Below are positions 752 through 19,216 of a stretch of 64,000 nt of DNA, one piece after another. Origin of the DNA: an uncultured Hoeflea sp. (lineage in GTDB: Bacteria; Pseudomonadota; Alphaproteobacteria; Rhizobiales; Rhizobiaceae). The first letter of the stretch is position 1. Every line of letters starts with the position of its first letter. Where the stretch lies: NCBI RefSeq assembly GCF_947501405.1, contig NZ_CANMVK010000005.1, positions 186,001-250,000 of the forward strand, written 5' to 3'. The position numbers were made by a program, and so were the translations under genes. Below the pieces are notes generated by a model that saw only the letters and a list, made by a program, of their open reading frames with translations, was not told where the DNA came from and did not search any database.

Positions 752-801
752 TTGACATGCGCAGCGAAATAGAAGCCCATAGGCAAGTCTTATATAAGAC
801 T
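752..801 (+). promoter_or_regulatory. Promoter region with GntR-type palindromic operator, site 1 (dctQM)
   Basis: A perfect 14-bp palindrome GTCTTATATAAGAC lies at 787-800, or 16 bp (786-801) when the flanking A and T are counted. It is 45 bp upstream of the dctQ start. A consensus-like -35 element TTGACA is at 752-757; no clear -10 is visible. The same palindrome occurs before dctP, before the kinase gene, and between gntR and suyA. It is probably the operator of the GntR protein encoded at 11647-12390, since HutC-subfamily regulators bind AT-centred palindromes of this GT-N-AC shape. Confidence 0.8.
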
Positions 802-844
802 CGCAGAACCGCTGTGGTTGCCGGCTTGGGGGAGGACCTAGACC

Positions 845-1432
845 ATGACAGTGATTTTGGCGCTGCTGAGACCGCTTACGCATCTCAACACGTTGCTCTT
901 GCGACTGGGGCGCAACGTCGCCTGGGTGGCGATGGGGCTGATGGTGCTGATCATCATGCTTCAGGTGTTTTTCCGCTATATTGTCGGCAATGCCTTAGCC
1001 TGGCCCGATGAGGGCGCGCGGTTTCTGATGCTGTGGATGACGGCGGTGATTGCGCCGACCGCCTATCGTTGGGGCGGGTTCGTTTCCATCGAAATGGTCA
1101 AGGATCTGCTGCCGGCCCGGGTTGGCGCGTTGCTCGGGCTGGCGCTGCTGCTGGTGTCGCTGGTGGTGCTGGTTTACGGCTTCCGGCTCGGACTCAACCA
1201 CATCAACTCGGGTTGGCTGTTCGCTTCGTCATCGCTCAAGTTGCCGCTCGAATTCCTCGGGCTGGGGCTGATACGGATCAAGCTTGCATGGATGTACATG
1301 TCGCTGCCGGTCGGCCTGTTTTTGATGATCCTGGTCAATCTGGAGCTGTGCCTGAAGGCGGTCGCGCATCTGATCGATCCGGATGCGGAGCTTCCCGAAG
1401 ACCATGATCAAGTCATTGTAGCGGTGGAGTAA
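845..1432 (+). CDS. TRAP transporter small permease (DctQ type)
   Basis: This 195-residue membrane protein has four hydrophobic segments, at roughly residues 20-45, 55-75, 90-115 and 140-165. The WPDE segment around residue 57, in front of a membrane helix, is typical of DctQ. DctQ proteins form the small membrane component of tripartite ATP-independent periplasmic transporters, which use an ion gradient and a periplasmic binding protein. The start has a strong GGGGGAGG site at about 828-835. The large permease gene begins 3 bp after the stop, so the two are one operon. An operator palindrome lies 45 bp upstream. Substrate is not shown by this protein; context suggests an organosulfonate. Confidence 0.9.
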   Translation: MTVILALLRPLTHLNTLLLRLGRNVAWVAMGLMVLIIMLQVFFRYIVGNALAWPDEGARFLMLWMTAVIAPTAYRWGGFVSIEMVKDLLPARVGALLGLALLLVSLVVLVYGFRLGLNHINSGWLFASSSLKLPLEFLGLGLIRIKLAWMYMSLPVGLFLMILVNLELCLKAVAHLIDPDAELPEDHDQVIVAVE

Positions 1433-1435
1433 GTC

Positions 1436-2725
1436 ATGCTGTTTTTCTTTCTGCCGCTGTTTCTGATTTTTCTGATGATCGGCCTGCCGGTGTTTTTCGG
1501 CATGCTGGCTGCCCCCGGTTTTCTGCTGTGGCTCAATGGCCAGGAGCGTGACATCGCGCTGCTTTATCGCAACGTCTACACAGGCATGGATTCATTCCCG
1601 TTGATGGCGATCCCGTTCTTCATGCTGGCGGGCGAGTTGATGAACCGCGGCGGCATTACCATGCGCATCGTCGAGTTCAGCCAGGCGATGATCGGCCACC
1701 TCAAGGGTGGGTTGGCGCATGTCAACATTCTCTCGTCCATGCTGTTTGCCGGGCTGTCCGGTTCGGCGGTGGCCGATGTGTCGGCGCTCGGATCGATGCT
1801 GATCCCGGCGATGGAGAAGAATGGGTACACGCGGAAATTCGCAGCCGCCGTCACCGCCGCCTCATCGGTGATCGGCCCGATCATTCCGCCGTCCGGCATT
1901 ATGATCATCTATGCCTATGTGATGGGCGAATCGGTTGCAGCGCTGTTTCTGGCGGGCATCGTGCCGGGCGTGCTGATTGGGCTTTCGCTGATGGCGGTGG
2001 TGGGCTTTCTGGCCAACCGCAATGATTTTCCGGCCGCGTCGCGGCGCGCCACCTGGCCGGAGAAGGGCCAGGCCAGCCTGAAGGCTTTTTTCCCGCTGCT
2101 CACACCGGTGATCATTCTGGGTGGTATCCTGGGCGGCATCTTTACGCCAACCGAGGCGTCCGCGGTGGCGGCGGTCTATGCCTTCATCGTGGCGCTGTTC
2201 ATCCTCAAGACCATGGGCTGGGCTGACCTGCCGAAGGTGCTGACAAAGGCGGCGATGACCACCTCGGTTGTGCTGCTTCTGGTGGGGGCGGCGATGGCGT
2301 TCAAGACCGTGGTCAGCCTGTCGCATACGCCGGAAATTCTCGCCAACTTCATTCTCGGCCTGTCGGACAATCCCTATATCCTGCTGTTTTTGATCAACCT
2401 GCTGTTGTTCATTGTCGGGATGTTTCTCGATGCAGGGCCGGCGATCATCATCCTTGGTCCGATCCTTGGTCCGATCTTCACCGATCTCGGCGTTCATCCA
2501 GTGCATTTCGCCATCATCATGAGCGTAAACCTGACCGTCGGGCTGGCGACGCCGCCCATGGGGCTGGTGCTGTTTGTCACCTCGAGCGTGTCGGGAGAAC
2601 GGGTGGAAACCATCGCCAAGGCGATCATGCCGTTCCTGCTGGTGCAGATCGTAGCCATATTCCTGATCACCTTCGTGCCGCAGATCTCGTTGTTCATGCC
2701 GCAGCTGTTTGGCTTCGCGAAGTAG
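1436..2725 (+). CDS. TRAP transporter large permease (DctM type)
   Basis: The protein has 429 residues with about 12 hydrophobic helices, the usual size of a DctM subunit. Family marks include the MDSFPLMAIPFFMLAGELMNRGGI segment near residue 50, the FAGLSGSAVADVSALG motif near 105, IGPIIPPSGIMIIYAY near 145, FTPTEASAVAAVYA near 235 and NLTVGLATPPMGLVLFV near 365. DctM carries the substrate and ions across the inner membrane together with DctQ. It is translationally close to dctQ (3-bp gap). The binding-protein gene follows but has its own promoter and operator, a split that can allow more SBP than permease. Confidence 0.95.
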   Translation: MLFFFLPLFLIFLMIGLPVFFGMLAAPGFLLWLNGQERDIALLYRNVYTGMDSFPLMAIPFFMLAGELMNRGGITMRIVEFSQAMIGHLKGGLAHVNILSSMLFAGLSGSAVADVSALGSMLIPAMEKNGYTRKFAAAVTAASSVIGPIIPPSGIMIIYAYVMGESVAALFLAGIVPGVLIGLSLMAVVGFLANRNDFPAASRRATWPEKGQASLKAFFPLLTPVIILGGILGGIFTPTEASAVAAVYAFIVALFILKTMGWADLPKVLTKAAMTTSVVLLLVGAAMAFKTVVSLSHTPEILANFILGLSDNPYILLFLINLLLFIVGMFLDAGPAIIILGPILGPIFTDLGVHPVHFAIIMSVNLTVGLATPPMGLVLFVTSSVSGERVETIAKAIMPFLLVQIVAIFLITFVPQISLFMPQLFGFAK

Positions 2726-2825
2726 CGGCGGGCAAGATGTCGTGGCGGTGTCATACGCGATCGGTTAGGCTGCAAGCGGGCAGGCGCGAAGTTACTCGAC
2801 CTTGCTGACCGGGATGCCGGAACGC

Positions 2826-2872
2826 TTGACAAGCACGGGAGCCTCGTCAATCTTGTGTCTTATATAAGACTT
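2826..2872 (+). promoter_or_regulatory. Promoter region with GntR-type palindromic operator, site 2 (dctP)
   Basis: GTCTTATATAAGAC is at 2857-2870, 35 bp before the dctP start codon. A -35-like TTGACA is at 2826-2831. The 22 bases 2851-2872 are identical to 6482-6503 in front of the kinase gene, so conservation reaches beyond the palindrome and includes an extra upstream half-site-like TCTTG. The palindrome would overlap or adjoin the transcription start, which fits repression relieved by an inducer. Confidence 0.8.
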
Positions 2873-2905
2873 AACGGGTACCAAAGACCAATGGGAGGGT
2901 CATTC

Positions 2906-3985
2906 ATGATTTTGAAGCAGGCAATGAAAACGCTGACCGCCGCTGCGCTCGGCCTGTCGGTTCTGGCCGGCGGCATGATCACCGCGGCGCAGGCCGCTGA
3001 CATCACGCTGCGCGCCACAGCCAACTCCAATGAGAACGACGAGGACTATGATGGCCTTGTGGTGTTCAAGGACTATGTCGAGAAGGCCTCTAACGGCACC
3101 ATCGCTGTGGAGCTGTTCATCGGCACGCAGCTATGCTCGACCGGTGCGGAGTGCCTGCAGGGCATCGCCGACGGATCGATCGATATCTATATCTCGACCT
3201 CGGGCGGCGCGTCGGGGATCTTCCCCTATGTGCAGGTGCTCGATCTTCCCTATCTGCTTCGCGATGACCGTATTGCCGAGGAAGTGCTGACCGAAGGTAC
3301 CTTCACCCGGGCGCTGCGCGAGCAGATGCTGGCCGATTCAGGCGGCATGATCCGGCTGATGACCGTCGGCAACACCGGTGGCTGGCGCAACTTCGCCAAC
3401 ACCCAAAGAGAGATCCGCTCGCCCGCTGATATGGACGGATTGAAGATCCGCACGATTGTTGCCGATCTGCCGCAGGAACTGGTGCGGTCGATGGGCGCAT
3501 CGCCGACGCCGATCCCGTGGCCGGAGCTGTTCACCTCGTTCCAGACCGGTGTCGTGGAAGGCACCCAGAACGGCATCACCGACATCATGGGTATGAAGTT
3601 TCCGGATGCAGGCCTGAAACATCTCACGCTTGATGGCCATTCCTACATGGGCGCTTTGTGGTTCATGAACAATGACCGTTTCATGGGACTGGACGAGAAT
3701 CTGCGCCGCGTCGTTGTTGACGGTTTTGCAGCTTTGCAGCAGGCGACCTTCGCCTCGCCCAAGCGCAAATCCATTCAAGCCTATCAGGATTTCGCCGAGA
3801 TCGGCGGCCAGATCTATGTGCCGACAATGGAAGAGAAGGCGCAGTTCAAGGAAGCTGCGGCGCCGGTGTTCGAGTGGTTCAAAACCAATGTCGATGGCGG
3901 CGCCACCTTCTATGATTTGCTGGTGGCCGAAGCGGAAAAAGCCTCCGGCGTCGTCGACAGCGGCGCGATGATGGATCTGAAATAG
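2906..3985 (+). CDS. TRAP transporter substrate-binding protein (DctP family)
   Basis: ATG 2906 is chosen because GGGAGG at about 2894-2899 precedes it and it gives a clean Sec signal peptide (basic start, hydrophobic core, AQA-ADI cleavage near residue 29). A longer reading from an upstream GTG would run through the operator. The mature protein (about 330 residues) is a periplasmic DctP protein. The segment MDGLKIRT near residue 183 carries the arginine that usually salt-bridges an anionic group of the ligand. It is followed by GASPTPIPWPELFTSFQTGVVEGTQN, a DctP signature. Placement in a sulfonate locus suggests a sulfonate ligand (SQ, sulfoquinovosyl glycerol or sulfolactate), but the ligand cannot be read from sequence. 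Confidence 0.93.
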   Translation: MILKQAMKTLTAAALGLSVLAGGMITAAQAADITLRATANSNENDEDYDGLVVFKDYVEKASNGTIAVELFIGTQLCSTGAECLQGIADGSIDIYISTSGGASGIFPYVQVLDLPYLLRDDRIAEEVLTEGTFTRALREQMLADSGGMIRLMTVGNTGGWRNFANTQREIRSPADMDGLKIRTIVADLPQELVRSMGASPTPIPWPELFTSFQTGVVEGTQNGITDIMGMKFPDAGLKHLTLDGHSYMGALWFMNNDRFMGLDENLRRVVVDGFAALQQATFASPKRKSIQAYQDFAEIGGQIYVPTMEEKAQFKEAAAPVFEWFKTNVDGGATFYDLLVAEAEKASGVVDSGAMMDLK

Positions 3986-4011
3986 ACCCGCGCACCGTCG
4001 CAATTGTTCAG

Positions 4012-4040
4012 GCCGTCCGGTTCACGCCGGGCGGTTTTTT
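4012..4040 (+). terminator. Rho-independent terminator after dctP
   Basis: GCCGTCCGG (4012-4020) pairs with CCGGGCGG (4027-4034) around a short loop, with one G-U pair, and is followed directly by six T residues (4035-4040). It lies 27 bp after the dctP stop and would end the TRAP transcript before the convergent VOC gene. Confidence 0.8.
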
Positions 4041-4045
4041 GTTGC

Positions 4046-4423
4046 CTAGCCCTGTCGTGACAGTGGCTGACCGAACAGGATCAGCGTCGCGTAGTCATCG
4101 GCGACATGGAATTCACGCTGGCCGTAGTGCTGATCGAAAGGCGAGCGTATCCGGACTTGCGGAAGCGTATCCAGGCCAGGCTTGAGCTGCTCATAGAGCG
4201 CGTCGACATCATCGACATCGATATAGATCATCTGTTGCCGACGTTCGTCACTCAGATCGACATCGGCGGGTGTGACCACCACGCGGATGGCGGCATGGTC
4301 GCGGCGCAGGAAAGCGTAGCCATCGGCCTTGAAGGTGCAGTTAAACCCCAGGATCCCGCAATAAAAGCGGATCGAACTATCAAGATCGGAGGTCAGAACG
4401 AACGGTGTGATCTGCTTGAACAT
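4046..4423 (-). CDS. VOC-family protein (glyoxalase/bleomycin-resistance fold)
   Basis: A 125-residue protein made of two beta-alpha-beta-beta-beta modules. TPFVLTSDLDSSIRFYCGILGF at the start and a REFHVADDYATLILFG end are typical of bleomycin-resistance-like VOC proteins. The C-terminal glutamate that often binds metal is replaced (FGQP), and no clear metal-ligand set is visible. Small-molecule binding is therefore as likely as catalysis. It faces the dctP operon convergently and is followed in the same direction by nothing obvious; the Sel1 gene lies upstream. No operator is seen at its start. Substrate unknown. Confidence 0.8.
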   Translation of the reverse strand: MFKQITPFVLTSDLDSSIRFYCGILGFNCTFKADGYAFLRRDHAAIRVVVTPADVDLSDERRQQMIYIDVDDVDALYEQLKPGLDTLPQVRIRSPFDQHYGQREFHVADDYATLILFGQPLSRQG

Positions 4424-4474
4424 CGACGGTTCCCGAGAGGCGAGTTTTGCGCGGCGAGCTGGGGGATGGGACAG

Positions 4475-4984
4475 CTACCTGAAGGGATACATCCAGGGCC
4501 GGTAATCATCAATCAGCACTTCGGCGCGACGGATTTGCTCAGGCGTCATTTTCTTGGCCACCTCTTCGATCGAGATCGCTGCATCCGGATCGCCGCCGAT
4601 CGCTGACAGGCCGTACCAGAGATAGGCGCGGACCAGATCGACGGCGGTGCCGCGGCCGACTTCGAAATACCAGCCGATGCCCGATTGCGCGCCGGGGTGT
4701 CCTTTCATCGAGGCGCGCAGATACCACTCGAAGGCGCGCTCATCGTCTCGCTCCACCCCTAGCCCCATGGCATACATGACGCCGATGAGTTCCTCGGCGT
4801 CAGCATTGCCCGAGCGGGCGGCAGGCAGGAACTCAGCCATGGCGTCCTCGAAGCGGCTTTGCTCCATGAGGATCCGGCCTTTTTCGATTTCGGCGCTGGC
4901 GGATGCCGGGTGGAGCACCACGGCAACGGCGATAAGACCAAGGGCGGCGAGAGCTTTTTTGGCGTTTGCAAGCCGAGACGTCAT
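4475..4984 (-). CDS. Secreted Sel1/TPR-like repeat protein
   Basis: The 169-residue protein starts with a signal peptide (SRLANAKKALAALGLIAVAVVLHPASASA-E). It then has alpha-helical Sel1-type repeats: EDAMAEFLPAARSGNADAEELIGVMYAMGLGVERDDERAFEWYLRASMKGHPGAQSGIGWYFEVG and so on. Sel1 repeats form a solenoid used for protein-protein contacts, here in the periplasm. Its start is about 100 bp from the di-haem peroxidase gene, which runs in the opposite direction, so the two may share a divergent promoter region. Whether it belongs to the catabolic locus is not clear. Confidence 0.8.
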   Translation of the reverse strand: MTSRLANAKKALAALGLIAVAVVLHPASASAEIEKGRILMEQSRFEDAMAEFLPAARSGNADAEELIGVMYAMGLGVERDDERAFEWYLRASMKGHPGAQSGIGWYFEVGRGTAVDLVRAYLWYGLSAIGGDPDAAISIEEVAKKMTPEQIRRAEVLIDDYRPWMYPFR

Positions 4985-5087
4985 TTGTCATTGTTCCCCA
5001 ACGCTTGGACCGGGCCGACAATAGGGTGCGCGCCGCGTGCAAGGCAAGACAGTCACGGTTTGGTTAGGGAGGCGTTTGGGTGGTGCG

Positions 5088-6440
5088 ATGGTGACATGGC
5101 AGGCGCGATGGGGAAGGGCGATTGCAGGAGGCTTGCTCGGTATGCTGGCCCTGGGCGCGCCGGGTGCGTCTGCAGAGCCTGCAACCGCAAGCCCGCCGCC
5201 GCTGGTTGCGGCCGATTTCCATGAGTTCGACGAGGCGTTGGCCGAAATCGGCCGGCTCTTGTTTTACGACCGCGTGCTTTCGGGCAACCGCAACATTTCC
5301 TGCGGCGCCTGCCATCATCATGACCTTGCGTCCGGCGACGGGCTGGCGCTGGGTGTGGGCGAGGGTGGCGAGGGCATCGGCCCCAAACGCACCACTGGTC
5401 GCGATGCGGCGCGGATCGAAAAGCGCGTGCCGCGCAATGCGCCGGCGCTGTTCAATCTCGGTGCACGCGATATCCGGGTGTTGTTTCACGACGGACGCCT
5501 GAGCATCGATGACATTTTCGGCAATGGCTTCAATTCCCCGGCGGAGGAATATCTGCCTGATGGGCTGAAGGGGATACTCGCTGCCCAGGCCCTGTTTCCG
5601 CTGACATCGGAAACCGAGATGGCCGGCAATCCCGAGGAAAACAAGGTGGCGGGAGCCGCCTATGACCGGATTGACCATGTCTGGCCCCTGTTGGTCGAGC
5701 GGGTGCGGGCGATTCCGGAATATGTGGAGATGTTCGGGCGTGCGGATCCCTCAATCCGAAGCGCAGGCGATCTGACGATTGCTCATATCGCCAATGCGCT
5801 CGGCGACTTCATCAACGGCGAATGGCGGGTGACCGACAGCGCCTTCGACCGCTTTTTGGGTGGCGATACCGCGGCGCTTTCAACGCCGGCGCTGGCCGGA
5901 ATGGAGCTCTTTTATGGCAAGGCCGGATGTGCGGCGTGCCATTCGGGCAAGTTGATGTCGGACCAGGAATTTCATGCTTTGGCGCTGCCGCATTTCGGAC
6001 CGGGCCGTACCCGCCTGTTCGATCCCTATGTGCGTGATGTCGGGCGGATGGCGGAATCCAACCGGCTTGAGGATGCCTACCGGTTCCGCACCCCGATGCT
6101 GCGCAATGTCGAGCTGACCGGTCCCTGGGGGCACAATGGCGCCTATGCGACGCTTGAGGGAATCGTCCGTCATCACCTTGATCCGCTGCTGTCGCTTAGG
6201 GCCTGGACGCCCGAGATGGTGCAGTTGCCTGCCGACGAGCGGCTTGCGGAGGTGGATTTCATCGCACTTCAGGACCGGCGTGAACGGGCGCGGCTTGAAT
6301 CGAGGGTCGACATCGCGCCGGTGGCGCTCAGCGATTCTGAGGTGGGCGATCTGATCGCCTTTCTCAAAGCGCTGACGGGCAGCGCGGATGGACGCCTCGG
6401 CCGTCCCGACCAGGTACCGAGCGGCCTGCCGGTCGATTGA
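5088..6440 (+). CDS. Di-haem cytochrome c peroxidase / MauG family protein
   Basis: Two CXXCH haem-binding motifs are visible: CGACH about 75 residues in, and CAACH about 280 residues in. The family segments FHDGR, FNSPAE and GPWGHNGAYATLEGIVRHH are present. ATG 5088 gives a typical signal peptide (RWGRAIAGGLLGMLALGAPGASA-EP); an upstream GTG at 5037 is possible. Proteins of this family act in the periplasm, reducing H2O2 with electrons from cytochrome c, or oxidising protein or small-molecule partners as MauG does. A link to sulfonate breakdown is not established. The kinase operon promoter follows 47 bp after its stop, so it is probably a separate unit. Confidence 0.87.
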   Translation: MVTWQARWGRAIAGGLLGMLALGAPGASAEPATASPPPLVAADFHEFDEALAEIGRLLFYDRVLSGNRNISCGACHHHDLASGDGLALGVGEGGEGIGPKRTTGRDAARIEKRVPRNAPALFNLGARDIRVLFHDGRLSIDDIFGNGFNSPAEEYLPDGLKGILAAQALFPLTSETEMAGNPEENKVAGAAYDRIDHVWPLLVERVRAIPEYVEMFGRADPSIRSAGDLTIAHIANALGDFINGEWRVTDSAFDRFLGGDTAALSTPALAGMELFYGKAGCAACHSGKLMSDQEFHALALPHFGPGRTRLFDPYVRDVGRMAESNRLEDAYRFRTPMLRNVELTGPWGHNGAYATLEGIVRHHLDPLLSLRAWTPEMVQLPADERLAEVDFIALQDRRERARLESRVDIAPVALSDSEVGDLIAFLKALTGSADGRLGRPDQVPSGLPVD

Positions 6441-6481
6441 GCGGAGGCGGCAATCAAATCCATCGATCCGCGCATGTTCGG

Positions 6482-6503
6482 TCTTGTGTCTTATATAAGA
6501 CTT
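6482..6503 (+). promoter_or_regulatory. GntR-type palindromic operator, site 3 (kinase-aldolase operon)
   Basis: GTCTTATATAAGAC is at 6488-6501, 67 bp upstream of the kinase start codon. The 22 bases 6482-6503 repeat exactly those at 2851-2872 before dctP. No convincing TTGACA lies at the spacing seen at the other three sites, so the promoter core here is uncertain. The site places the upper-pathway genes under the same probable regulator as transport and sulfolactate cleavage. Confidence 0.8.
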
Positions 6504-6568
6504 GATAAAGTCCGGCACAGACGGATGGTTTTCGTCCGCTAGAAACAAGCCTTGGGTGCATATCTGAC

Positions 6569-7474
6569 ATGCCAAAGATCGTGACCGCCGGCGTCGCCGT
6601 GATCGATTTCGTATTCCTGGTCGACGAGATGCCGCGCCGGGCCGAGAAATACCGGGCGCGGGAGGCCAGCATCACGGGCGGCGGTTGCGCCGCCAATGCC
6701 GCGGCGGCGATTGCGCGGCTTGGCGGAGAGGCGGCGCTGGCTGCGCGTCTTGGCGACGATCAGGTTGGCGACATGATTGTCGCGGGTCTGGCGGCCGACG
6801 GGGTGGATTGCACCATGGTGCGACGGTTCGAGGGGCGACGGTCGTCGTTTTCCTCGGTGTTTGTCGACCGTGAGGGCGAGCGGCAGATTGTCAATTTCCG
6901 CGATCAGACCCTTTCCATGAAGGCCGATTGGCTGGCGACGGCGCTTCCAGACAGTTTCGACGCAGCATTGGCGGATACGCGATGGCCAGACGGTGCCGCG
7001 GCGCTGATGCAGGCGGCGCGCGACCGGGGCCTGCCGGGTGTGCTGGATGCGGAAGCGCCGATCCACGGTGCCGAGGCTGCGTTTGAGCTTGCAAGCCACC
7101 TGGCGTTTTCCGCGCAAGGGCTTCGTGACTGGGCCGGTCACGACGATCTCGAAGGCGCGCTGGTCGCAGCGGCTGAGCAGACAGGGGCTTTCGTGTGCGT
7201 GACCGACGGGGCCAAGGGCGTGCGCTGGCGGCAGGGTGCAGAGGCCGGATTCGAACCATCCTATGCGATCGAAGCCCTGGATACGCTGGGAGCTGGCGAT
7301 GTCTGGCATGGTGCGTTTGCGCTGAGCCTGGCTGAAGGCGAGGAGATCAGCCGGGCGATCCGGTTTGCCAATGCGGTCGCGGCGATCAAGTGCACCAGGC
7401 CGGATGGCCGCCCGGGCTATCCGACCCTGCAAGAGACAGAAGACTTCATGCGAGAGGCGAAGCTATGCAATTGA
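6569..7474 (+). CDS. PfkB-family sugar kinase, candidate sulfofructose kinase
   Basis: The 301-residue protein has the PfkB (ribokinase) fold. The first strand is KIVTAGVAVIDFVFLVDEMP, followed by a glycine-rich ITGGGCAANAAAAIARLGG segment near residue 32. The second signature is DTLGAGDVWHGAFALSLAEG, with the catalytic aspartate at about D244. The family phosphorylates sugars with ATP. It overlaps the aldolase gene by 10 nt. A kinase plus a LacD/YihT-type class I aldolase is the core of the sulfo-EMP route, where the kinase makes 6-deoxy-6-sulfofructose 1-phosphate. With suyAB nearby this is the favoured role. A tagatose or fructose-phosphate kinase is the alternative. Confidence 0.85.
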   Translation: MPKIVTAGVAVIDFVFLVDEMPRRAEKYRAREASITGGGCAANAAAAIARLGGEAALAARLGDDQVGDMIVAGLAADGVDCTMVRRFEGRRSSFSSVFVDREGERQIVNFRDQTLSMKADWLATALPDSFDAALADTRWPDGAAALMQAARDRGLPGVLDAEAPIHGAEAAFELASHLAFSAQGLRDWAGHDDLEGALVAAAEQTGAFVCVTDGAKGVRWRQGAEAGFEPSYAIEALDTLGAGDVWHGAFALSLAEGEEISRAIRFANAVAAIKCTRPDGRPGYPTLQETEDFMREAKLCN

Positions 7475-8499
7475 GTGCGGGAAAACTTTGGGGCATGCGG
7501 CGCATGGCCGATGAGGGCGGGCTGTTCAAGATGACGGCAGTGGATCAGCGGCCGCCGATCAAGGGGCCGATCGCCAAACATCACGGATTGGCGGAAGCTC
7601 CATGGGCTGAAGTTGCCGATTTCAAGACCCTGTTGATCGAAACCCTGCAGGGGCAATCCTCGGCGATGCTGCTTGATCCGCATTTCGCCATTCCCCGTGG
7701 CATCGGCAAGCTTTCGCCGATGAAAGGACTGATCGTTACGCTGGAGGATTCGATTTTTGCCGAGACGCCGGGTGGGCGGCTGTCGAGCGAGATCGACGAC
7801 TGGTCGGTGGAAAAGATCAAGCGCATGGGAGGGGATGCGGTCAAGGTGCTGGCCTGGTACCGTCCCGATGCCTCCGATCACGTCAAGGACAAGCAGAAGG
7901 ATTTCACCAAGCGCATTGGCGAGGTCTGCGCGCGCTACGATATCCCGTTCCTGTTCGAACTCTTGGTCTACCCGCTGGCGGGAGACGCGCACCAGACCAC
8001 GGATTATGTCGAAATGACCGGAAAGCGCACCGACCATGTGCTGCAATCGGTCGCGGATTTCGCGGCACCGGATTACGGGATCGACGTGTTCAAGCTCGAA
8101 AGCCCGGTGGCTGCCAGGCATGTCCCCGATGAAGAAGACGCCCGGGTGCAGGCGGCATTTGATGAAATGGGACGGTTGGCGGGCCGGCCATGGGTCATGC
8201 TCTCTGCGGGCGCCGGCAAGGCGGAGTTCCGCAACATCATGGCCCATGCCTATCGGGCCGGCGCTTCGGGCTATCTGGCCGGACGGGCGATCTGGCTCGA
8301 AGCTTTTAGCCATTACCCCGATTGGCCGGCAATGCGCGCAGCACTCGAGGGCGAGGCTGTTGCCTATATGCGCGATCTCAATGCGCTGACTGACGCCGCG
8401 GCGCTGCCCTGGCACCGGCATCCGGTGTTCGGTGCGGACGGCGTGGGCTTTGTGCCGGCGGACCAGAGTTTCCGCCACGTCTATGCAGACATGCGTTGA
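7465..8499 (+). CDS. LacD-family class I aldolase, candidate sulfofructose-phosphate aldolase
   Basis: ATG 7465 lies inside the end of the kinase gene and gives a 344-residue protein. It is related to tagatose 1,6-bisphosphate aldolase (LacD) and to E. coli YihT. Visible features are FKMTAVDQRPPI near residue 22, the phosphate-handling region LLDPHFAIP, VKVLAWYRPD, FLFELLVYPL and DVFKLESPV, where K210 is the probable Schiff-base lysine. The end of the barrel has PWVMLSAGAGKAEFRN. In sulfo-EMP such an enzyme splits sulfofructose 1-phosphate into dihydroxyacetone phosphate and (S)-sulfolactaldehyde. The non-sulfonated tagatose bisphosphate reaction cannot be excluded from sequence alone. Confidence 0.85.
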   Translation: MQLSAGKLWGMRRMADEGGLFKMTAVDQRPPIKGPIAKHHGLAEAPWAEVADFKTLLIETLQGQSSAMLLDPHFAIPRGIGKLSPMKGLIVTLEDSIFAETPGGRLSSEIDDWSVEKIKRMGGDAVKVLAWYRPDASDHVKDKQKDFTKRIGEVCARYDIPFLFELLVYPLAGDAHQTTDYVEMTGKRTDHVLQSVADFAAPDYGIDVFKLESPVAARHVPDEEDARVQAAFDEMGRLAGRPWVMLSAGAGKAEFRNIMAHAYRAGASGYLAGRAIWLEAFSHYPDWPAMRAALEGEAVAYMRDLNALTDAAALPWHRHPVFGADGVGFVPADQSFRHVYADMR

Positions 8500-8513
8500 T
8501 GGCCGGGCGCCTG

Positions 8514-9104
8514 TCAGTCCAGCAGCAGCCGGTTGATCACCCGCGGCGGATCGCCGGGCGTGATCGCCGGCGCTATGATCACCGCCTCGCCTTCACGCGG
8601 CAATGTGCCGGAAATCGCCCGGATCAGCTCCGGATGGGTGACCATCAACTGATTGCCGGCGCCGTAAAACTCGTCGACAGCGGCGATCAGCTCCAATGGA
8701 ATGACCTGTGGGTCGTCACCGCCGACAATCGAGTTGAGATAGGCCCTGGTTTCGATGCGGCTGCCGCCAAAGCCCAGTTCGGCTGTCTGGAGGGCACGGC
8801 AGAATTCTCCGGAATAGACCGCACTGATCGACACCGCGCGGGCGGCAAAGCGCATGCCGATGCGCCGTGCTTCCTGGATGCCGCGGTCGCTGAGGCTCTT
8901 CCTGGCGTCGCAATCGCCCAGATCCGGCCGGAGCGGTTCGCCGCGACCGGGTGTGCGGGCATAGCCCAGCAGGATGGTGTAGCCGCCCTGTGCCAGCCGG
9001 GCCCATGCGGCCTCGGTGGCGAAGGTTTGAGTAAAGGGCGCAAGGACGGACAGGGTCATTGCCAGGATGAGGGCCGTGGCCCGGCGTCTGGAGATCATTG
9101 TCAT
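8514..9104 (-). CDS. Histidine-phosphatase-like secreted protein lacking the catalytic RH
   Basis: The 196-residue protein has a signal peptide (ATALILAMTLSVLAPFTQTFA). It then has a branch-1 histidine phosphatase fold: LSDRGIQEARRIGMRF, AVYSGEFCRALQTAE, a late VTHPELIRAISG with the second histidine. In active members the first strand ends in RHA; here it reads LLGYARTPG, so the arginine and the nucleophilic histidine are replaced by G47 and Y48 (codons at 8966-8961). The protein is therefore probably not a phosphatase. It is convergent with the aldolase gene (14-bp gap) and divergent from the isomerase gene. Function unknown. Confidence 0.75.
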   Translation of the reverse strand: MTMISRRRATALILAMTLSVLAPFTQTFATEAAWARLAQGGYTILLGYARTPGRGEPLRPDLGDCDARKSLSDRGIQEARRIGMRFAARAVSISAVYSGEFCRALQTAELGFGGSRIETRAYLNSIVGGDDPQVIPLELIAAVDEFYGAGNQLMVTHPELIRAISGTLPREGEAVIIAPAITPGDPPRVINRLLLD

Positions 9105-9150
9105 GACTGCAATCTAGTGTTTTTGGACGGTGATGTAAGGGGGCAAAACC

Positions 9151-10539
9151 ATGGCTGACGAAACTCTGCGCATCGGCGTGCTGCCGCTTGGCCGCCCCAC
9201 ATTCGACGTGCCGTTTGCCGAGACGATGCTTGAGGGCATGTTTGCTGATCTCGATCAGTCGGGCCACGAGTTGGTCGGATCCCGAAATCTGTTGATGGAT
9301 GCGCAGTCGGCGCATGCCGCAATCGACGAGATTGCGGCAAAAGCGGTCGATCGGATCCTGATCCTGCAGGTCACGTTTACGGATGCCGCCATGACCTGCG
9401 ATATCGCCGCGCGGTTCGATCAGCCGCTGGCGATCTGGGCGGTTCCCGAACCGCGGCTTGGCGGGCGGCTGCGGCTCAATGCCTTCTGCGGCCTCAATCT
9501 GGCGTCGCATGCGCTGTCATTGCGCGAGCGGCTGTTTTCCTGGGCCTATGCCGCGCCGGGGGAAGCGGATCTTGTCGCGTTGCTTGGCGCGGAACCGATG
9601 GTTCGGCCGCTTACGCCGCAGGCTGTCAATGCCGAGCCCGAACGCGGCCTGGAGTTGCTCGATCAGCTCAGGGGCAAAAACATCGCCCGGATCGGCGCTC
9701 ATCCGGTAGGATTCGACACCTGTGCCTACCAGCCGGATCGGCTGGCCGAAACCACCGGGCTGGCGGTCAAGGATTTTGATCTGGAAGATCTGTTCAGCCG
9801 GGCGCGTGCCGCTCCGGATCAGGCCGCGCGGCAGTTGCGCCAGTCGGCCAGCACGATGCTTGCGGGCCTCGATGAGGTCGACCAGCCGCAGCTTGACCGG
9901 TCGCTGCGGCTGAAGCTGGCGCTGGACGGTATGAAGGCCGAGGGCGGCTTCGATGCTTTCGCGATCCGTTGTTGGCCGGAGACCTTCACAGACTATGGCG
10001 GGGCGGTGTGCGGACCGGTGTCGATGATGGGGGAAGCGCGAACGCCGTGCGCCTGCGAGGCGGATGTCTATGGCGCCGCCACGCAGCTTTTGCTGCAGGC
10101 GGCGAGCGATCAGCCGGTGTTTCTGGTCGATCTGGTCGATATCGACGCTGCGGACAATTCCGCGGTGGTCTGGCATTGCGGTCAGGCGCCGGTGTCGATG
10201 GCCGATCCCGATGCAGTGGCAGAAGCCACCATCCACACCAATCGCAAAATGCCTCTGCTGTTCGAGTTTCCGCTCAAGCCCGGTCCCGTGACATTTGTCC
10301 GGTTAAGCCAGGCGCGGGGCAGGCACAGCCTGGTGATCGGGCGTGGCGACATGCTTAGGCGCGACAAGGCGTTTACCGGCACTTCTGGGGTGGTACGGTT
10401 TGACCGCGACGCGAACGCGGTGCTTTCACGGGTGATCGACAGCGGGCTCGAACACCACATGGCGCTGGCCTATGGCGACCATGTCGCGGCACTTGAAAGC
10501 TTCGCAGTCGCCGCCGGTCTTCCGGTCACCCATCTCTGA
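9151..10539 (+). CDS. L-fucose/L-arabinose isomerase-like protein, candidate sulfoquinovose isomerase
   Basis: The 462-residue protein resembles the FucI/AraA superfamily. The N-terminal half has RILILQVTFTDAAM and PLAIWAVPEPRLGGRLRLNAFCGLNLASHAL. The C-terminal half has RCWPETFTDYGGAVCGPVSMM (E277) and CACEADVYGA (E303), spaced like the metal-binding acidic pair of AraA and FucI, then VVWHCGQAP (H342). These enzymes interconvert aldoses and ketoses with Mn2+. In a kinase-aldolase locus the missing step is SQ to sulfofructose, so an isomerase fits well; I recall FucI-like SQ isomerases (SqvD) in sulfoglycolysis variants. Start has GTAAGGGGGC about 10 bp upstream. No operator is seen in the 46-bp gap before it. 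Confidence 0.75.
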   Translation: MADETLRIGVLPLGRPTFDVPFAETMLEGMFADLDQSGHELVGSRNLLMDAQSAHAAIDEIAAKAVDRILILQVTFTDAAMTCDIAARFDQPLAIWAVPEPRLGGRLRLNAFCGLNLASHALSLRERLFSWAYAAPGEADLVALLGAEPMVRPLTPQAVNAEPERGLELLDQLRGKNIARIGAHPVGFDTCAYQPDRLAETTGLAVKDFDLEDLFSRARAAPDQAARQLRQSASTMLAGLDEVDQPQLDRSLRLKLALDGMKAEGGFDAFAIRCWPETFTDYGGAVCGPVSMMGEARTPCACEADVYGAATQLLLQAASDQPVFLVDLVDIDAADNSAVVWHCGQAPVSMADPDAVAEATIHTNRKMPLLFEFPLKPGPVTFVRLSQARGRHSLVIGRGDMLRRDKAFTGTSGVVRFDRDANAVLSRVIDSGLEHHMALAYGDHVAALESFAVAAGLPVTHL

Positions 10540-10565
10540 TCGATCATCTGCTTGAGGCGTAAGTC

Positions 10566-11660
10566 ATGACTGACATTAGATACGGCGTCATCGGTACCGG
10601 CATGATGGGCCAGGAGCATATCCGCAACATCAATCTGATCGATGGCGCGCGGGTGACCGCGATCTGTGACCCTGACCCAGATATGCGGACCGGCGGGCAG
10701 ACACTGGCAGGCGGAGATTGCGCGGCCTTTGACAGCCATGAAGCGCTGGTCGGCTCCGGTCTGTGCGACGCTTTGGTGATCGCCTCACCCAATCACCTGC
10801 ATCACCGGGTGCTGATTGACGTGTTGCCGGCCGATCTCCCGGTGCTTGCCGAGAAGCCGCTTTGCACGACGCTTGAGGATTGCGAGGAGGTGCTTGCCTT
10901 GGCGTCACAGCGCTCCGCACCGGTATGGGTGGCGATGGAGTACCGCTTTATGCCGCCCGTCAAGCGACTGCTTGGCGCGGTGACCAAGGGCGAAACCGGC
11001 GCCGTGCGGATGATCTCGATTCGCGAGCACCGGTTTCCGTTCCTGAAAAAAGTCGGCGACTGGAACCGCTTCTCAGATCAGACCGGCGGAACACTGGTGG
11101 AGAAATGCTGCCATTTCTTTGATCTGATGCGGCTCATTGCCGGGGCCGAAGTGGTGCGTGTCTTTGCTTCGGGCGGGACCGACGTCAATTTTCTTGAAGA
11201 GGATTATGGCGGCCGCACGCCCGACATTCTCGACAATGCCTTCGTGATCGTGGATTTCGACAATGGGGTGCGCGGCATGCTGGAATTGTGCATGTTCGCC
11301 GAAGGATCTGAGTGGCAGGAGGCGATTTCGGTGATCGGCGACAGCGCCAAGGCCGAGGCGCTGGTGCCAGGACCATCACGGTTTTCGCCCGATGGCGTCG
11401 AGCGGCATTCCGAGTTCGTGTTGTCGCCGCGGGCGAGCAAATCCCAGATGCGCGAGGTGATGCATGTCGATGCCGCGATCCTGGCTGCGGGTGACCATCA
11501 TGGCTCGACATTCTTTCAGCATCAGAAATTCTTCGCCATGATCCGCGATGGCGGCACGCCGGTGGTGACCCTGGAGGACGGGCTCAAATCGGTGCGGATC
11601 GGGCTTGCCGCAGAGCAGTCGGTCAAAAGCGGCGAGCCGGTGGCGCTCAGCGTAGATTGA
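10566..11660 (+). CDS. Gfo/Idh/MocA-family NAD(P)-dependent protein, candidate SQ glycosidase or dehydrogenase
   Basis: The 364-residue protein has an N-terminal Rossmann fold (YGVIGTGMMGQEHI, residues 5-18) and the family motif VLAEKPL (E96-K97-P98). A later GGTLVEKCCHFFDLMR contains the K180/H183 pair of the active-site helix. Family members oxidise sugars or inositols. Some use tightly bound NAD+ to hydrolyse glycosides by transient oxidation (GH109 and the NAD-dependent sulfoquinovosidases, GH188). No GH31 sulfoquinovosidase is in the window, so this protein could release SQ from sulfoquinovosyl glycerol. It follows the isomerase gene by 26 bp (same operon) and its 3' end overlaps gntR by 14 bp, tail to tail. 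The family is sure, the role is not. Confidence 0.85.
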   Translation: MTDIRYGVIGTGMMGQEHIRNINLIDGARVTAICDPDPDMRTGGQTLAGGDCAAFDSHEALVGSGLCDALVIASPNHLHHRVLIDVLPADLPVLAEKPLCTTLEDCEEVLALASQRSAPVWVAMEYRFMPPVKRLLGAVTKGETGAVRMISIREHRFPFLKKVGDWNRFSDQTGGTLVEKCCHFFDLMRLIAGAEVVRVFASGGTDVNFLEEDYGGRTPDILDNAFVIVDFDNGVRGMLELCMFAEGSEWQEAISVIGDSAKAEALVPGPSRFSPDGVERHSEFVLSPRASKSQMREVMHVDAAILAAGDHHGSTFFQHQKFFAMIRDGGTPVVTLEDGLKSVRIGLAAEQSVKSGEPVALSVD

Positions 11661-12390
11661 CTGCGTAGTGGATTTCGCGGGAGATACAGCGCGACCACCT
11701 GAGTTCCACGGGCCGTTTTTCGAGATCGCGGGCGACACGGCTGATCAGCAGCAACGGCTCGCCGGCGTCGCAACCGAGTCTGGCGGCATCGCGTTTGCTC
11801 GCAGCAATTGCCTTGAGGCGCTCTTCGGCGCTGCCGATGGTGATGCCCCAGCGTTCGGAGTAAAGCCGATAGAGATTGTTGGGAATGATGGTCAGGTGGT
11901 CGAAATCGGGAAACCTTGCTTCGGGTAGGGTGATGGTTTCGATCAGGATCGGCTGGTCCGAGAGCGACCGGATGCGCTCGATGCGAAACACCTGCTCATC
12001 CCCTGACAATCCCAGGGCCTTGGTTTCGGTCTTTGTGGGCTTGGCGTGGCCGGTGCTCAAGACCCGGGAATCAGGAAAGCTCGGCGCGCCCTCGTCCGGC
12101 GCCAGTCGGAAGAACTGAAACAGAATGCGGCTTTCCTCAGGCTCTGCCACATAGGTGCCGCGTCCCTGTCTGCGGATCAGAAGATTGTCGGCGGTCATCG
12201 AATCGAGCGCCTTGCGCACGGTGCCCTGGCTGACATTGAGCTGGCGCGCCAGCTCGATCTCGCTGGGCAAAAGCATGCCCGGCGACCACTCGCCTTCGAC
12301 CAGGCGCCGCATCATTCGCTCGCGCACCTGGGCGTAAAGCGGCTTGAAGCCGATCGCCGCGTCTGCATCAGGCCCGGCTTGCTCCGCCAT
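11647..12390 (-). CDS. GntR-family (HutC/FarR subfamily) regulator of the locus
   Basis: A 247-residue regulator. Residues about 15-80 form the GntR winged helix-turn-helix: PLYAQVRERMMRRLVEGEWSPGMLLPSEIELARQLNVSQGTVRKALDSMTADNLLIRRQGRGTYVA. The rest is a UTRA ligand-binding domain, as in HutC. It is divergent from suyA; the 126-bp space between them carries the palindrome ATCTTATATAAGAC at 12452-12465, so autoregulation is likely. The same palindrome stands before dctQM, dctP and the kinase gene. Ligand is probably a pathway intermediate or sugar phosphate; this is inference. Repression is more usual than activation in this subfamily. Confidence 0.9.
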   Translation of the reverse strand: MAEQAGPDADAAIGFKPLYAQVRERMMRRLVEGEWSPGMLLPSEIELARQLNVSQGTVRKALDSMTADNLLIRRQGRGTYVAEPEESRILFQFFRLAPDEGAPSFPDSRVLSTGHAKPTKTETKALGLSGDEQVFRIERIRSLSDQPILIETITLPEARFPDFDHLTIIPNNLYRLYSERWGITIGSAEERLKAIAASKRDAARLGCDAGEPLLLISRVARDLEKRPVELRWSRCISREIHYAVNLR

Positions 12391-12423
12391 CGGGTTTTTC
12401 CTTTCCCTGCACCGGCCTCCCGG

Positions 12424-12465
12424 TTGACATTCCGATCTCTCCGTATCTTATATCTTATATAAGAC
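12424..12465 (+). promoter_or_regulatory. suyA promoter with GntR-type operator, site 4 (also in front of gntR)
   Basis: A -35 element TTGACA lies at 12424-12429. The operator ATCTTATATAAGAC (12452-12465; inner 12 bp TCTTATATAAGA perfect) overlaps or adjoins the expected -10. An extra left half-site is present: ATCTTAT occurs twice in direct repeat at 12445-12451 and 12452-12458, which may allow a second dimer to contact the site. The operator is 51 bp from the suyA start and 61 bp from the gntR start. GGAGG before GTG 12517 marks the suyA ribosome binding site. Confidence 0.82.
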
Positions 12466-12516: not shown

Positions 12517-12804
12517 GTGACCACCCCCCATTTATTGGTACATGATCACACGGACAATGTCGGCGTTGTTGTTGTCGAGGGTTTGACTTCGGGGACCAAG
12601 ATGCTTTGCGTTGTCACGCATGACAATTCGAGTTTTTCGCTTACGGCGGGGGCTGATGTTCCGATCGGCCACAAGATCGCGCTTTCAGACATCAAGTCGG
12701 GCGACACGGCGATCAAATATGGCGAGGACATCGGCAAGTTCATCGCCGACGTCGCCAAGGGCGCGCATGTGCACACCCACAATCTCAAGACCAAGCGCTG
12801 GTAG
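12517..12804 (+). CDS. suyA: (R)-sulfolactate sulfo-lyase small subunit (SAF domain)
   Basis: The 95-residue protein corresponds to the N-terminal SAF domain of altronate dehydratase (UxaA), encoded here as a separate gene. Residues such as [42 protein letters not shown] and the end [17 protein letters not shown] match the SuyA/UxaA small domain, including the HTHN segment. SuyAB splits (R)-sulfolactate into pyruvate and sulfite. The start is GTG with GGAGG upstream. It is the first gene of suyA-suyB-slcC-comC directly behind the operator. A split altronate or galactarate dehydratase is the main alternative, made less likely by the two sulfolactate-dehydrogenase-like genes downstream. Confidence 0.82.
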
Positions 12805-12815
12805 GAGCAAACGTG

Positions 12816-13997
12816 ATGGCATCGAACTATTCCAACATGACCTTTCACGGCTACCGGCGCGAGAACGGCCGGGTGGGGGTGCGCAACCACGTCGTCATCC
12901 TGCCGGTCGACGACATCTCGAATGCGGCCTGCGAGGCGGTGGCCAACAACGTCAAGGGCACGCTGGCGATCCCCCATGCCTATGGCCGTCTGCAGTTCGG
13001 CGAAGATCTCGAGGTGCATTTCCGCACCATCATCGGCACCGGGGCCAACCCCAATGTGGCGGCTGTGGTGGTGATCGGCATCGAGCCGGGCTGGACCAGG
13101 AAGATCGCCGACGGCATTCGCAAGACCGGCAAGCCGGTCGCCGAGTTTTCGATCGAGCAGAAGGGCGACTTCGAGACGATCCGGGCGGCGGGATGGGCTG
13201 CCAAGGAATTCGTCCATCACGCCTCCGAGCTGCAGCGCGAGGAGTGCTCGATCTCCGAACTCTGGGTGTCGACCAAATGCGGCGAGAGTGACACCACGAC
13301 GGGACTGAGCTCCTGCCCGACGGTGGGCAACATGTATGACAAGCTGTTGCCCGAGGGGATCACCGGGTTCTTCGGCGAAACCTCGGAGATCACCGGGGCC
13401 GAACATATCTGCCAGAAGCGCGCCATCAATGAAGAGGTTGGCGAGCGCTGGCACAAGATGTGGAAGGCCTATCAGGATGACGTCATCTTCGCCCACCAGA
13501 CCGACGATCTTTCCGACAGCCAGCCGACCAAGGGCAACATCGAGGGTGGTCTGACGACGATCGAGGAGAAAGCGCTGGGCAATCTCGAGAAGATCGGCCG
13601 GACCTCCAGGTTCATCGACATTCTCGATCCCGCCGAGATGCCCGATTCTGGCAACGGGCTGTACTTCATGGATTCGTCCTCCGCGGCAGCGGAATGCGTC
13701 ACTCTGATGGCGGCGGGCGGCGCGGTGATCCACACCTTCCCCACGGGCCAGGGCAATGTGGTGGGCAACCCGATCGTGCCGGTGATCAAGATCTCCGGCA
13801 ATCCGCGCACCCTGCGCACGATGAGCGAGCATATCGATGTCGACGTGACCGGCGTGCTGACCCGCGAGATGACCATCGACGAGGCCGGTGATGCATTGAT
13901 CGACATGATCCGCCGCACCTCAAACGGCCGCGTAACCGCCGCAGAAGCCCTCGGACACAGAGAATTCTCAATGACAAAACTCTACCGATCAGCGTAA
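12816..13997 (+). CDS. suyB: (R)-sulfolactate sulfo-lyase large subunit (UxaA C-terminal family)
   Basis: This 393-residue protein is the catalytic-domain partner of suyA. It begins with [24 protein letters not shown], the UxaA large-domain start. It has [23 protein letters not shown] (C155 and a second cysteine about 12 residues on; the segment corresponds to the Fe-binding CGxSD region of UxaA), then [11 protein letters not shown] and [22 protein letters not shown]. Start ATG 12816 is 7 bp after AGGAG; GTG 12813 is an alternative. Together with SuyA it would eliminate sulfite from (R)-sulfolactate, giving pyruvate, in the cytoplasm. The sulfite must then be oxidised or exported by proteins not seen here. 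Confidence 0.82.
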
Positions 13998-14015
13998 GCG
14001 CGGACGAGATCGATC

Positions 14016-14948
14016 ATGGCGGATATCGTGATTTCCGAGTTCATGGACGAGGTGGCTGTTGCCCGCCTCGTCCAGGCCTATGACACTTTATATGATCCGA
14101 GGCTGGTGGACGATCCGGCTGCTTTGCATGGGCACCTTGCCTCCGCCAAGGCGCTGATCGTGCGCAACCGCACCCAGGTGCGCGAAGCGCTGCTGGGATT
14201 AGGCCCGAACCTCAAGGTGGTGGGCCGGCTCGGTGTCGGGCTCGACAATATCGATGTCGATGCCTGCCGTGCGCGCTCGATCAAGGTGATTCCCGCCACC
14301 GGCGCCAATGATCTGTCGGTGGCTGAATATGTGATTACCTCGGCGTTGATGCTGTTGCGTGGCGCCTGGCTGCGATCGGCAGAGGTCGCGGAGGGAACCT
14401 GGCCCCGGCAATCGATGATGGGCCGGGAACTGGCGGGCAAGACCATCGGGCTGGTGGGCTATGGCTCGATCGCTCGAGAGGTGGCCTGGCGGGCGCACAT
14501 GCTGGGCATGCAGATCGTGGCCTATGATCCCTATCTCGCAGCCGATCATCCCGGCTGGCAGATTGCCCGGAATGTGTCGCTGGATGCGGTTCTGGAACTT
14601 GCCGATGTGGTTTCGCTGCATACGCCGCTAACCGATGCGACGCGCAACATGATTGACGCCAGGGCGCTGTCGGCCATGAAACCGGACGCCGTAGTCATCA
14701 ATGCGGCGCGCGGCGGTATCGTCGACGAGACGGCTCTGGCCGAAGCGATCAGGGCCGGACAATTGGGCGGGGCAGCGCTTGACGTGTTTGCCGAGGAGCC
14801 GCTGACGGCTAAGGCCGGAGCCAAATTCAAGGATTTGACGAATCTCATCCTCACCCCGCACATCGCCGGGGTCACGCAGGAATCCAATCAGCGCGTCAGC
14901 CATCTGATCGCCGAGAAGGTTCTCGAAGCGCTGGGAGCCAATGCATGA
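14016..14948 (+). CDS. slcC: D-2-hydroxyacid dehydrogenase family, candidate (S)-sulfolactate dehydrogenase
   Basis: The 310-residue protein is a D-isomer-specific 2-hydroxyacid dehydrogenase. The nucleotide-binding motif is TIGLVGYGSIAREVAWRAHMLG near residue 145. The catalytic triad is visible as R232 (NAARGGIVDE), E261 (FAEEPL) and H282 (LTPHIAG). In sulfolactate degraders SlcC oxidises (S)-sulfolactate to 3-sulfopyruvate with NAD+. With comC it acts as a two-enzyme racemase that supplies (R)-sulfolactate to SuyAB. It lies 18 bp after suyB and overlaps comC by 4 nt. Phosphoglycerate dehydrogenase is the generic alternative, but the protein lacks an ACT domain and sits in this operon. Confidence 0.8.
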   Translation: MADIVISEFMDEVAVARLVQAYDTLYDPRLVDDPAALHGHLASAKALIVRNRTQVREALLGLGPNLKVVGRLGVGLDNIDVDACRARSIKVIPATGANDLSVAEYVITSALMLLRGAWLRSAEVAEGTWPRQSMMGRELAGKTIGLVGYGSIAREVAWRAHMLGMQIVAYDPYLAADHPGWQIARNVSLDAVLELADVVSLHTPLTDATRNMIDARALSAMKPDAVVINAARGGIVDETALAEAIRAGQLGGAALDVFAEEPLTAKAGAKFKDLTNLILTPHIAGVTQESNQRVSHLIAEKVLEALGANA

Positions 14949-19142: not shown

Positions 19143-19157
19143 ACCCGAATATCAAGT

Positions 19158-19193
19158 CCGGCGGAGCCCGCCACCTGGGGTGAACTCCGCCGG
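19158..19193 (-). repeat. Inverted repeat between dctP2 and the monooxygenase gene
   Basis: CCGGCGGAG at 19158-19166 and CTCCGCCGG at 19185-19193 can form a perfect 9-bp stem with an 18-nt loop. It sits in the 74-bp gap between the SBP gene and the monooxygenase gene. No T tract follows on the minus strand, so it is not a strong terminator. A stem here could protect the SBP part of the message or reduce read-through, giving more binding protein than permease; that role is inference. Confidence 0.6.
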
Positions 19194-19216
19194 AAGCTTC
19201 TTGAGGCCAGTTGACC

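Follow-up and report, generated by a model that had tools for sequence, protein, structure and literature searches.

The 64,000-nucleotide window analysed here (positions 186,001 to 250,000 of contig NZ_CANMVK010000005.1, from an uncultured Hoeflea sp. of the Rhizobiaceae) carries near its left end a cluster of catabolic genes, a divergent gene for a GntR/UTRA regulator of the HutC subfamily, and four copies of a short palindrome that probably serve as operators of that regulator (Table 1). The gene families of the cluster were assigned by Pfam and NCBIfam profile matches. Its Gfo/Idh protein matches 8qc2 and 8qc3 over residues 3-361 (E about 1e-117), the structures of the NAD-dependent sulfoquinovosidase SqgA (PMC10755693), and is close enough to be called a homologue of that enzyme (GH188) with the same putative activity. 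Because of this close relationship the cluster is read as a route that takes up and hydrolyses sulfoquinosides, isomerises and phosphorylates the sugar, splits it by aldol cleavage and ends in sulfolactate sulfo-lyase. The isomerase falls below the cut-off of 700 bits set for the SftI model NF048012 and is taken as a homologue only, and a search of the window genes up to position 16000 revealed no recognisable sulfolactaldehyde dehydrogenase. Sulfoquinovose, a plant sulfosugar, is made at 10 billion tons a year (PMC10755693), and a sulfosugar upper pathway joined to sulfite release in one bacterium has been called unusual (PMC12421959).

Three of the palindromes are exact copies of GTCTTATATAAGAC (787-800, 2857-2870 and 6488-6501), while the fourth, ATCTTATATAAGAC (12452-12465), has one mismatch to their core; all lie within 11.7 kb, with the letters and coordinates given by an earlier note made from the sequence alone. 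Even at up to three mismatches the window yielded these four alone (shuffled 100 times, it gave a mean of 0.24 and at most 2), and at up to two mismatches the same four places were the only ones in the whole genome (4,451,211 bases, 11 contigs). Neither a further copy in the window nor a multitude of unrelated genomic copies was therefore found. Weight is placed on exact and single-mismatch sites because the reversed pattern, used as a control, occurs at six genomic places at up to two mismatches and at none at up to one. The distances to the start codons of dctQ, dctP, pfkB and suyA are 44, 35, 67 and 51 nt, within the range that the note had claimed for the first genes of four units, and the fourth palindrome is indeed common to suyA and the divergent gntR, whose start codon lies 61 nt away. 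TTGACA begins 35, 31 and 28 bp before the dctQ, dctP and suyA palindromes, again as described, and is absent before that of pfkB.

Table 1. Features of the cluster, in window coordinates unless another contig is named; operators, promoter elements and functional names are predictions.
Feature	Position	Strand	Remark
TTGACA, putative dctQ −35	752..757	+	TTGAC before 6/7 dctQ sites
Candidate operator 1 (GTCTTATATAAGAC)	787..800		before dctQM; without third half-site
dctQ, TRAP transporter small permease (PF04290)	845..1432	+	ATG start
dctM, TRAP transporter large permease (PF06808)	1436..2725	+	
TTGACA, putative dctP −35	2826..2831	+	TTGAC at 6/6 dctP sites
Candidate operator 2, third half-site TCTTGT + G + TCTTATATAAGAC	2851..2870		before dctP
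dctP, TRAP solute-binding protein (PF03480)	2906..3985	+	ATG start, chosen by reading
Candidate operator 3, TCTTGT + G + TCTTATATAAGAC	6482..6501		overlaps −35 and fills spacer of putative pfkB promoter
Putative pfkB promoter TTGTGT-N16-TAAAGT	6484-6489, 6506-6511		from sequence conservation
pfkB-family sugar kinase (PF00294), putative sulfofructose kinase	6569..7474	+	ATG start
LacD/DeoC-family aldolase (PF01791, NF009498), putative sulfofructose-1-phosphate aldolase	7462..8499	+	
SftI-related isomerase, Fucose_iso_C domain	9151..10539	+	NF048012 at 272.2 bits; no operator of its own
Gfo/Idh protein, SqgA (GH188) homologue	10566..11660	+	8qc2, E 1.5e-117
GntR/UTRA regulator (HutC subfamily), proposed binder	11647..12390	−	ATG ending at 12390
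TTGACA, putative suyA −35	12424..12429	+	TTGAC at 36/36 suyA sites
Candidate operator 4, TCTTAT + A + TCTTATATAAGAC	12446..12465		common to suyA and divergent gntR; TCTTAT also putative suyA −10
suyA, SAF-domain subunit of sulfolactate sulfo-lyase	12517..12804	+	GTG start; weak family matches, named from gene context
suyB, sulfolactate sulfo-lyase large subunit (GD_AH)	12813..13997	+	below galactarate dehydratase cut-off; named from context
slcC, 2-hydroxyacid dehydrogenase family (PF02826)	14016..14948	+	
comC, Ldh_2 family dehydrogenase (PF02615)	14945..15949	+	
Second suyAB	C2:160001-180000 (L222), suyA 8746-9021, suyB 9033-10214		

In all, 297 genomes of the family, with none left out, were searched for the regulator (E 1e-40), for suyB (E 1e-120) and for the site (up to one mismatch), which were found in 54, 61 and 56 genomes, respectively. 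The site was present in 45 of the 54 regulator-positive and 11 of the 243 regulator-negative genomes (Fisher 1.1e-33, ignoring kinship, as does the next comparison). Among the suyB-positive genomes it occurred in 43 of the 50 with the regulator and in 1 of the 11 without, and this lone genome (G115) has a 37% homologue beside its site; the site thus goes with the regulator and not with suyAB. The regulator gene itself is also preceded by the site, at up to three mismatches, in all 30 family loci fetched (of 58 matches; eight were read on the opposite strand, which puts the site at +785 to +866). The homologues compared more widely came from Alpha-, Beta- and Gammaproteobacteria (117 rows, with some genomes entered twice, e.g. 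L036/L164, L037/L153); a site lay within 350 bp upstream in 88 at up to two mismatches and in 97 at up to three, and the reversed control in none at either limit. The motif is thus regularly present beside relatives of gntR.

The proposed binder has the HutC domain layout, an N-terminal PF00392 domain (4.4e-19) followed by a C-terminal UTRA domain, PF07702 (8.5e-32). In its predicted model (mean pLDDT 85.6, pTM 0.68, with uncertain domain orientation), the effector domain is the sole part that aligns closely with solved structures, namely 3cnv (TMt 0.90) and the DasR domains. The recognition helix reads VSQGT[VI]RKA in 34 of the 36 rows displayed, and in a tree read without a root the window protein falls among proteins most of which are linked to suyAB, separate from a Burkholderiales branch. 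The sites do not show the usual, though not universal, HutC motif, in which GT and AC stand 4 nt apart; here the arrangement is GT-N10-AC. Such spacing does not exclude HutC membership, because SdhR, with the same core, is listed among the exceptions to that motif (PMC4494728). One might argue that the palindrome is bound by another transcription factor, with gntR as just one of its targets, given that binding by the GntR protein is deduced here from sequence. Such an arrangement is very improbable, since among suyB-positive genomes the sites track this GntR, none of the genome's seven other GntR-domain matches is close (at best E 7e-21, with 34% over 222 residues), the two whose helix could be read have a different one, and a HutC regulator already in print shares the core.

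Sixty-two sites lying directly before dctQ (7), dctP (6), pfkB (13) or suyA (36) were chosen by hand; the preselection, at up to three mismatches, applied to the palindromes and left the flanks free, and many of the sites are from congeneric species. The suyA sites span 20 genera and the pfkB sites six, g33, g62, g68 and g49 among them; dctQ sites come from three, the third (L170) with three mismatches, and dctP sites from two. The whole order of epimerase, site, dctQM, site, dctP, site, pfkB-lacD-iso-gfo, gntR, site and suyAB is found in L145, of the same genus, and in three species of one other genus (g85; L153, L154 and L160), and L146, again of the same genus, shows it up to its contig end. 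In G060, with gntR and suyAB on different long contigs, suyA still has an exact copy, and G020 presents the same separation with a site at suyA, its true gntR-suyAB distance being unsure because one contig is only 5.8 kb long. Site positions before the same genes are kept between genera while the flanks diverge, the upstream flanks being near random (mean 0.19 bit for suyA in 34 non-redundant rows, 0.15 bit for pfkB in 13 rows). This placement, together with the window and genome scans and the reversed control, which was blank at up to one mismatch in the genome itself and upstream of all 117 homologues at up to three, disposes of a chance or structural repeat without regulatory role; the six looser genomic matches of the reversed pattern speak for such a repeat, and its probability is negligible.

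Relatives have extra sites, of which a part was inspected; some adjoin importers of other kinds. They precede an ABC binding protein gene (L155), a PF03601 gene (L182, two mismatches) and a frame without a Pfam match (L162); in L158 a TctC frame begins with one, and in L159 one separates a GMC oxidoreductase gene from another DctP gene. Matches in L156, L171 and L184 fall within long frames and look like background.

The sites contain a further element that the earlier note had not mentioned. At three of the four window sites a third half-site stands one 7-bp step upstream of the palindrome (TCTTGT at 2851 and 6482, TCTTAT at 12446), and at up to one mismatch it recurs in 50 of the 62 chosen sites (32/36 at suyA, 13/13 at pfkB, 5/6 at dctP), while a half-site at any other offset between −30 and −6 was found in below a quarter. 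TTGAC precedes all 36 suyA sites, separated from the third half-site by 16 nt in 30, 15 nt in five and 17 nt in one; because of this spacing, TCTTAT is likely to be the suyA −10. For suyA, the idea that the upstream TTGACA works with a −10 inside the palindrome was ruled out, as it is the third half-site that lies 16 nt after TTGACA. All 13 pfkB sites have TCTTGT as their third half-site, which would supply the TTG of a possible −35; TTG, T19, A20 and T24 are kept in 13, 13, 12 and 11 of the 13, with a −10-like pattern 16 nt further on. All six dctP sites have 19 nt between TTGAC and the third half-site, and the corresponding TTGAC spacing at dctQ is 22-24 nt. These promoter elements, assigned from conservation in rows of which several are close relatives, suggest two registers of operator use: at suyA the −10 is covered, at pfkB the −35 together with the spacer.

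We propose, with a probability of about 0.8, that the palindromes are operators at which the GntR/UTRA protein acts as a repressor of a local, sulfonate-induced regulon. Without inducer, a dimer would occupy each operator, probably with the help of an additional protomer at the third half-site. In the case of suyA the bound protein would cover the −10 and start region of the TTGACA promoter, and at pfkB it would overlap the −35 and fill the spacer to the −10, so that RNA polymerase would be kept off both promoters; at the shared site gntR would repress itself. A sulfonated intermediate, most likely 3-sulfolactate, would then bind the UTRA domain and release the protein, inducing together TRAP uptake, sulfoquinoside hydrolysis, an upper pathway of the sulfo-Embden-Meyerhof-Parnas type and SuyAB/SlcC/ComC. 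As effector, 3-sulfolactate or a close C3 sulfonate is favoured because the regulator accompanies suyB in 50 of 54 genomes while the adjoining upper pathway varies. The overlap of operators and likely promoter core points to repression, the mode of action of DasR and YvoA. An activating or dual role of the same protein at some sites, such as pfkB or dctQ, is unlikely: the distances between palindrome and TTGAC differ at dctQ, dctP and suyA, and pfkB has no TTGAC and only a poor −35, but the suyA and pfkB sites occupy the usual place of a repressor, over the likely core promoter, and both DasR and YvoA, the solved proteins closest to the regulator, are called repressors.

The room that the sequence leaves for activation is one of several points that weigh against repressing operators of a single GntR protein. 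None of the seven dctQ sites has the third half-site. No upstream site was found at up to three mismatches in 20 of the 117 homologue rows, some of which (e.g. L051-L053) have one elsewhere in the locus, and nine of the 54 regulator-positive genomes lack it at up to one mismatch; the two of these nine that were inspected have weaker sites (L182 with two mismatches, L183 with three). Conversely, 11 regulator-negative genomes have a site, and of the two inspected, that of G115 has the homologue noted above beside it, and that of G281 precedes a frame without a Pfam match. In G203, of the same genus, a pfkB homologue has no site at up to three mismatches. The agreement of the recognition helix is partly a matter of selection in the loci from the contig scan, because the helix peptide served as the scan pattern there (the best 80 of 592 relatives were kept). 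Finally, contig C2 of the genome carries another suyAB, with no palindrome at up to three mismatches in the surrounding 20 kb.

This second suyAB is 98.98% identical over 1475 bp to window positions 12524-13998, that is, to the suyAB coding region minus its first 7 bases, and the pair was likely copied or gene-converted recently, with the operator outside the copied part. Its neighbours are TRAP genes, a HisD-family dehydrogenase, an SDR gene, a match to TIGR00698 (putative sulfate exporter family) below the model cut-off, and a frame read as a zinc-type dehydrogenase, and the whole reads as a 2,3-dihydroxypropane-1-sulfonate (HpsN-type) cluster. In another genome, G139 (L223), a second suyAB likewise lies by TRAP genes without a site. 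The earlier proposal that one regulator governs uptake, upper and lower pathway together thus stands for a local regulon of a HutC-type GntR protein, but not in full, as the second suyAB has no site and the iso-gfo and aldose epimerase genes have no palindrome of their own. Because iso-gfo has no operator, its transcription may depend on read-through across the antisense histidine-phosphatase-family gene between lacD and the isomerase (8517-9104, minus strand). In the gene-order comparison 14 loci had an isomerase match, and in 13 of them a histidine-phosphatase homologue adjoins it; in another locus set the count was two of seven.

Control could instead be divided between two regulators, this GntR for the sulfolactate part and another for the upper pathway. 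It seems to be so divided in G255 and G167, because a second GntR (46% and 43% identical) stands there beside upper-pathway genes with variant sites. For the window the idea has only a slender chance, a shade below that of a different binding factor: its genome has one such GntR, the next relative being 34% identical, and before pfkB, dctQ and dctP the core is reproduced without a mismatch. We regard the cluster as a well supported and coherent regulon under the GntR/UTRA protein. The paralogue loci of G255 and G167 (L168, L169) offer a natural experiment in operator divergence.

The DNA code itself is not new. The motif printed for SdhR, a HutC-subfamily GntR regulator, is TCTTATGTCTTATATAAGACATAAGA (PMC4494728, citing PMC3370838) and contains both the exact 14-mer core and the 7-bp steps of extra half-sites, so that the description of the palindrome as unreported-looking had to be abandoned. 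The name suyR, for a regulator of sulfolactate degradation that goes with suyAB/slcC/comC, is also in print (PMC6018796, citing Denger and Cook 2010, Chromohalobacter salexigens). Set against the SdhR operator, the window has the core exactly at three sites and with one mismatch at the fourth; a single extra half-site accompanies three of the four, in two cases with one mismatch, whereas SdhR's fourth half-site is absent. Among the best 80 of 592 relatives, Burkholderiales homologues (38-42% identical) have the same site upstream in most cases and the same recognition helix. They are flanked by a malate/lactate dehydrogenase-family gene (L096) or a succinate dehydrogenase flavoprotein-family gene (L112), both by Pfam, the flanking genes of the other loci being grouped by BLAST, and from this context they are probably SdhR. 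The window protein belongs to another part of the tree and stands beside suyAB-slcC-comC and sulfoquinoside genes; in place of the succinate and malate dehydrogenase genes that would presumably mark an SdhR locus, the window has dct, pfkB, lacD, sqgA-like and suyAB genes.

Among solved proteins, the HutC-subfamily repressors DasR and YvoA are the best relatives in sequence and fold (DasR E 2.8e-33; top Foldseek rows), but their crystal ligands are others, namely amino-sugar phosphates (glucosamine-6-phosphate). Their operator differs from the palindrome described here, and CsqR (YihW) is a DeoR-family protein, not a GntR/UTRA one. CsqR resembles the present regulator in that it controls a sulfoquinovose gene set, that of E. 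coli (PMC10991401). Paracoccus wurundjeri likewise unites a SlcC/ComC/SuyAB lower half with a sulfosugar upper half, has PF00294 and PF01791 genes in its cluster and shows a gap at the same sulfolactaldehyde dehydrogenase step, no GabD/SlaB-type dehydrogenase having been found there, but its active upper half is of the Entner-Doudoroff type (PMC12421959). The words GntR and regulator are absent from the main text of that article, and the word regulator from PMC13372026; passages of PMC4334477 name a GntR at ectoine genes only. In the literature searched, which covered few subscription papers, neither sulfolactate nor sulfoquinovose genes were found with a GntR operator, and the use of this code in sulfosugar mineralisation was not found described. 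The three-half-site anatomy with its two promoter registers is a new detail.

A wider reading is possible, though tentative and quite likely to need revision: a HutC clade with VSQGT[VI]RKA as its recognition helix and operators of three half-sites may sense sulfolactate and co-ordinate sulfonate catabolism across Alpha- and Gammaproteobacteria, copied operators bringing in any acquired importer, be it TRAP, tricarboxylate-type or ABC, along with the acquired upper pathway, in the two registers of the suyA −10 and the pfkB −35 and spacer. SdhR, a regulator of central metabolism, would be an offshoot or the source of this clade that kept the DNA code and changed its effector. With the operator defined, a genomic marker becomes available for the transporter and upper pathway that feed the sulfolactate route, including genes away from gntR, and control of the whole path from glycoside to sulfite by one regulator becomes testable. 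At up to two mismatches no fifth operator in the genome points to a sulfolactaldehyde dehydrogenase gene; an operator search in relatives could help to locate it.

Several neighbouring and distant loci deserve mention. Between dctP and pfkB lies a gene for a di-haem cytochrome c peroxidase (CCP_MauG, 5037-6440), which is likewise placed in L153, L154 and L160, all of one genus, at 64-68% identity. Beyond comC, positions 16032-20299 hold a second TRAP system (dctM, dctQ and dctP, minus strand) and an FAD-binding monooxygenase-type gene, without a palindrome. In L086, L094 and L100, from Alteromonadaceae and Colwelliaceae, regulator homologues lie between GH31 glycosidase and aldo/keto reductase genes (assigned by Pfam in L086 and by BLAST grouping in the others) with sites at three places per locus, possibly another sulfosugar regulon. 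A further branch of the regulator, in Rhodospirillaceae and other Alphaproteobacteria (L063, L065, L068, L072), has no suyAB in the locus, and in L063 it adjoins an Ldh_2 dehydrogenase and a hydroxyisobutyrate-dehydrogenase-type gene.

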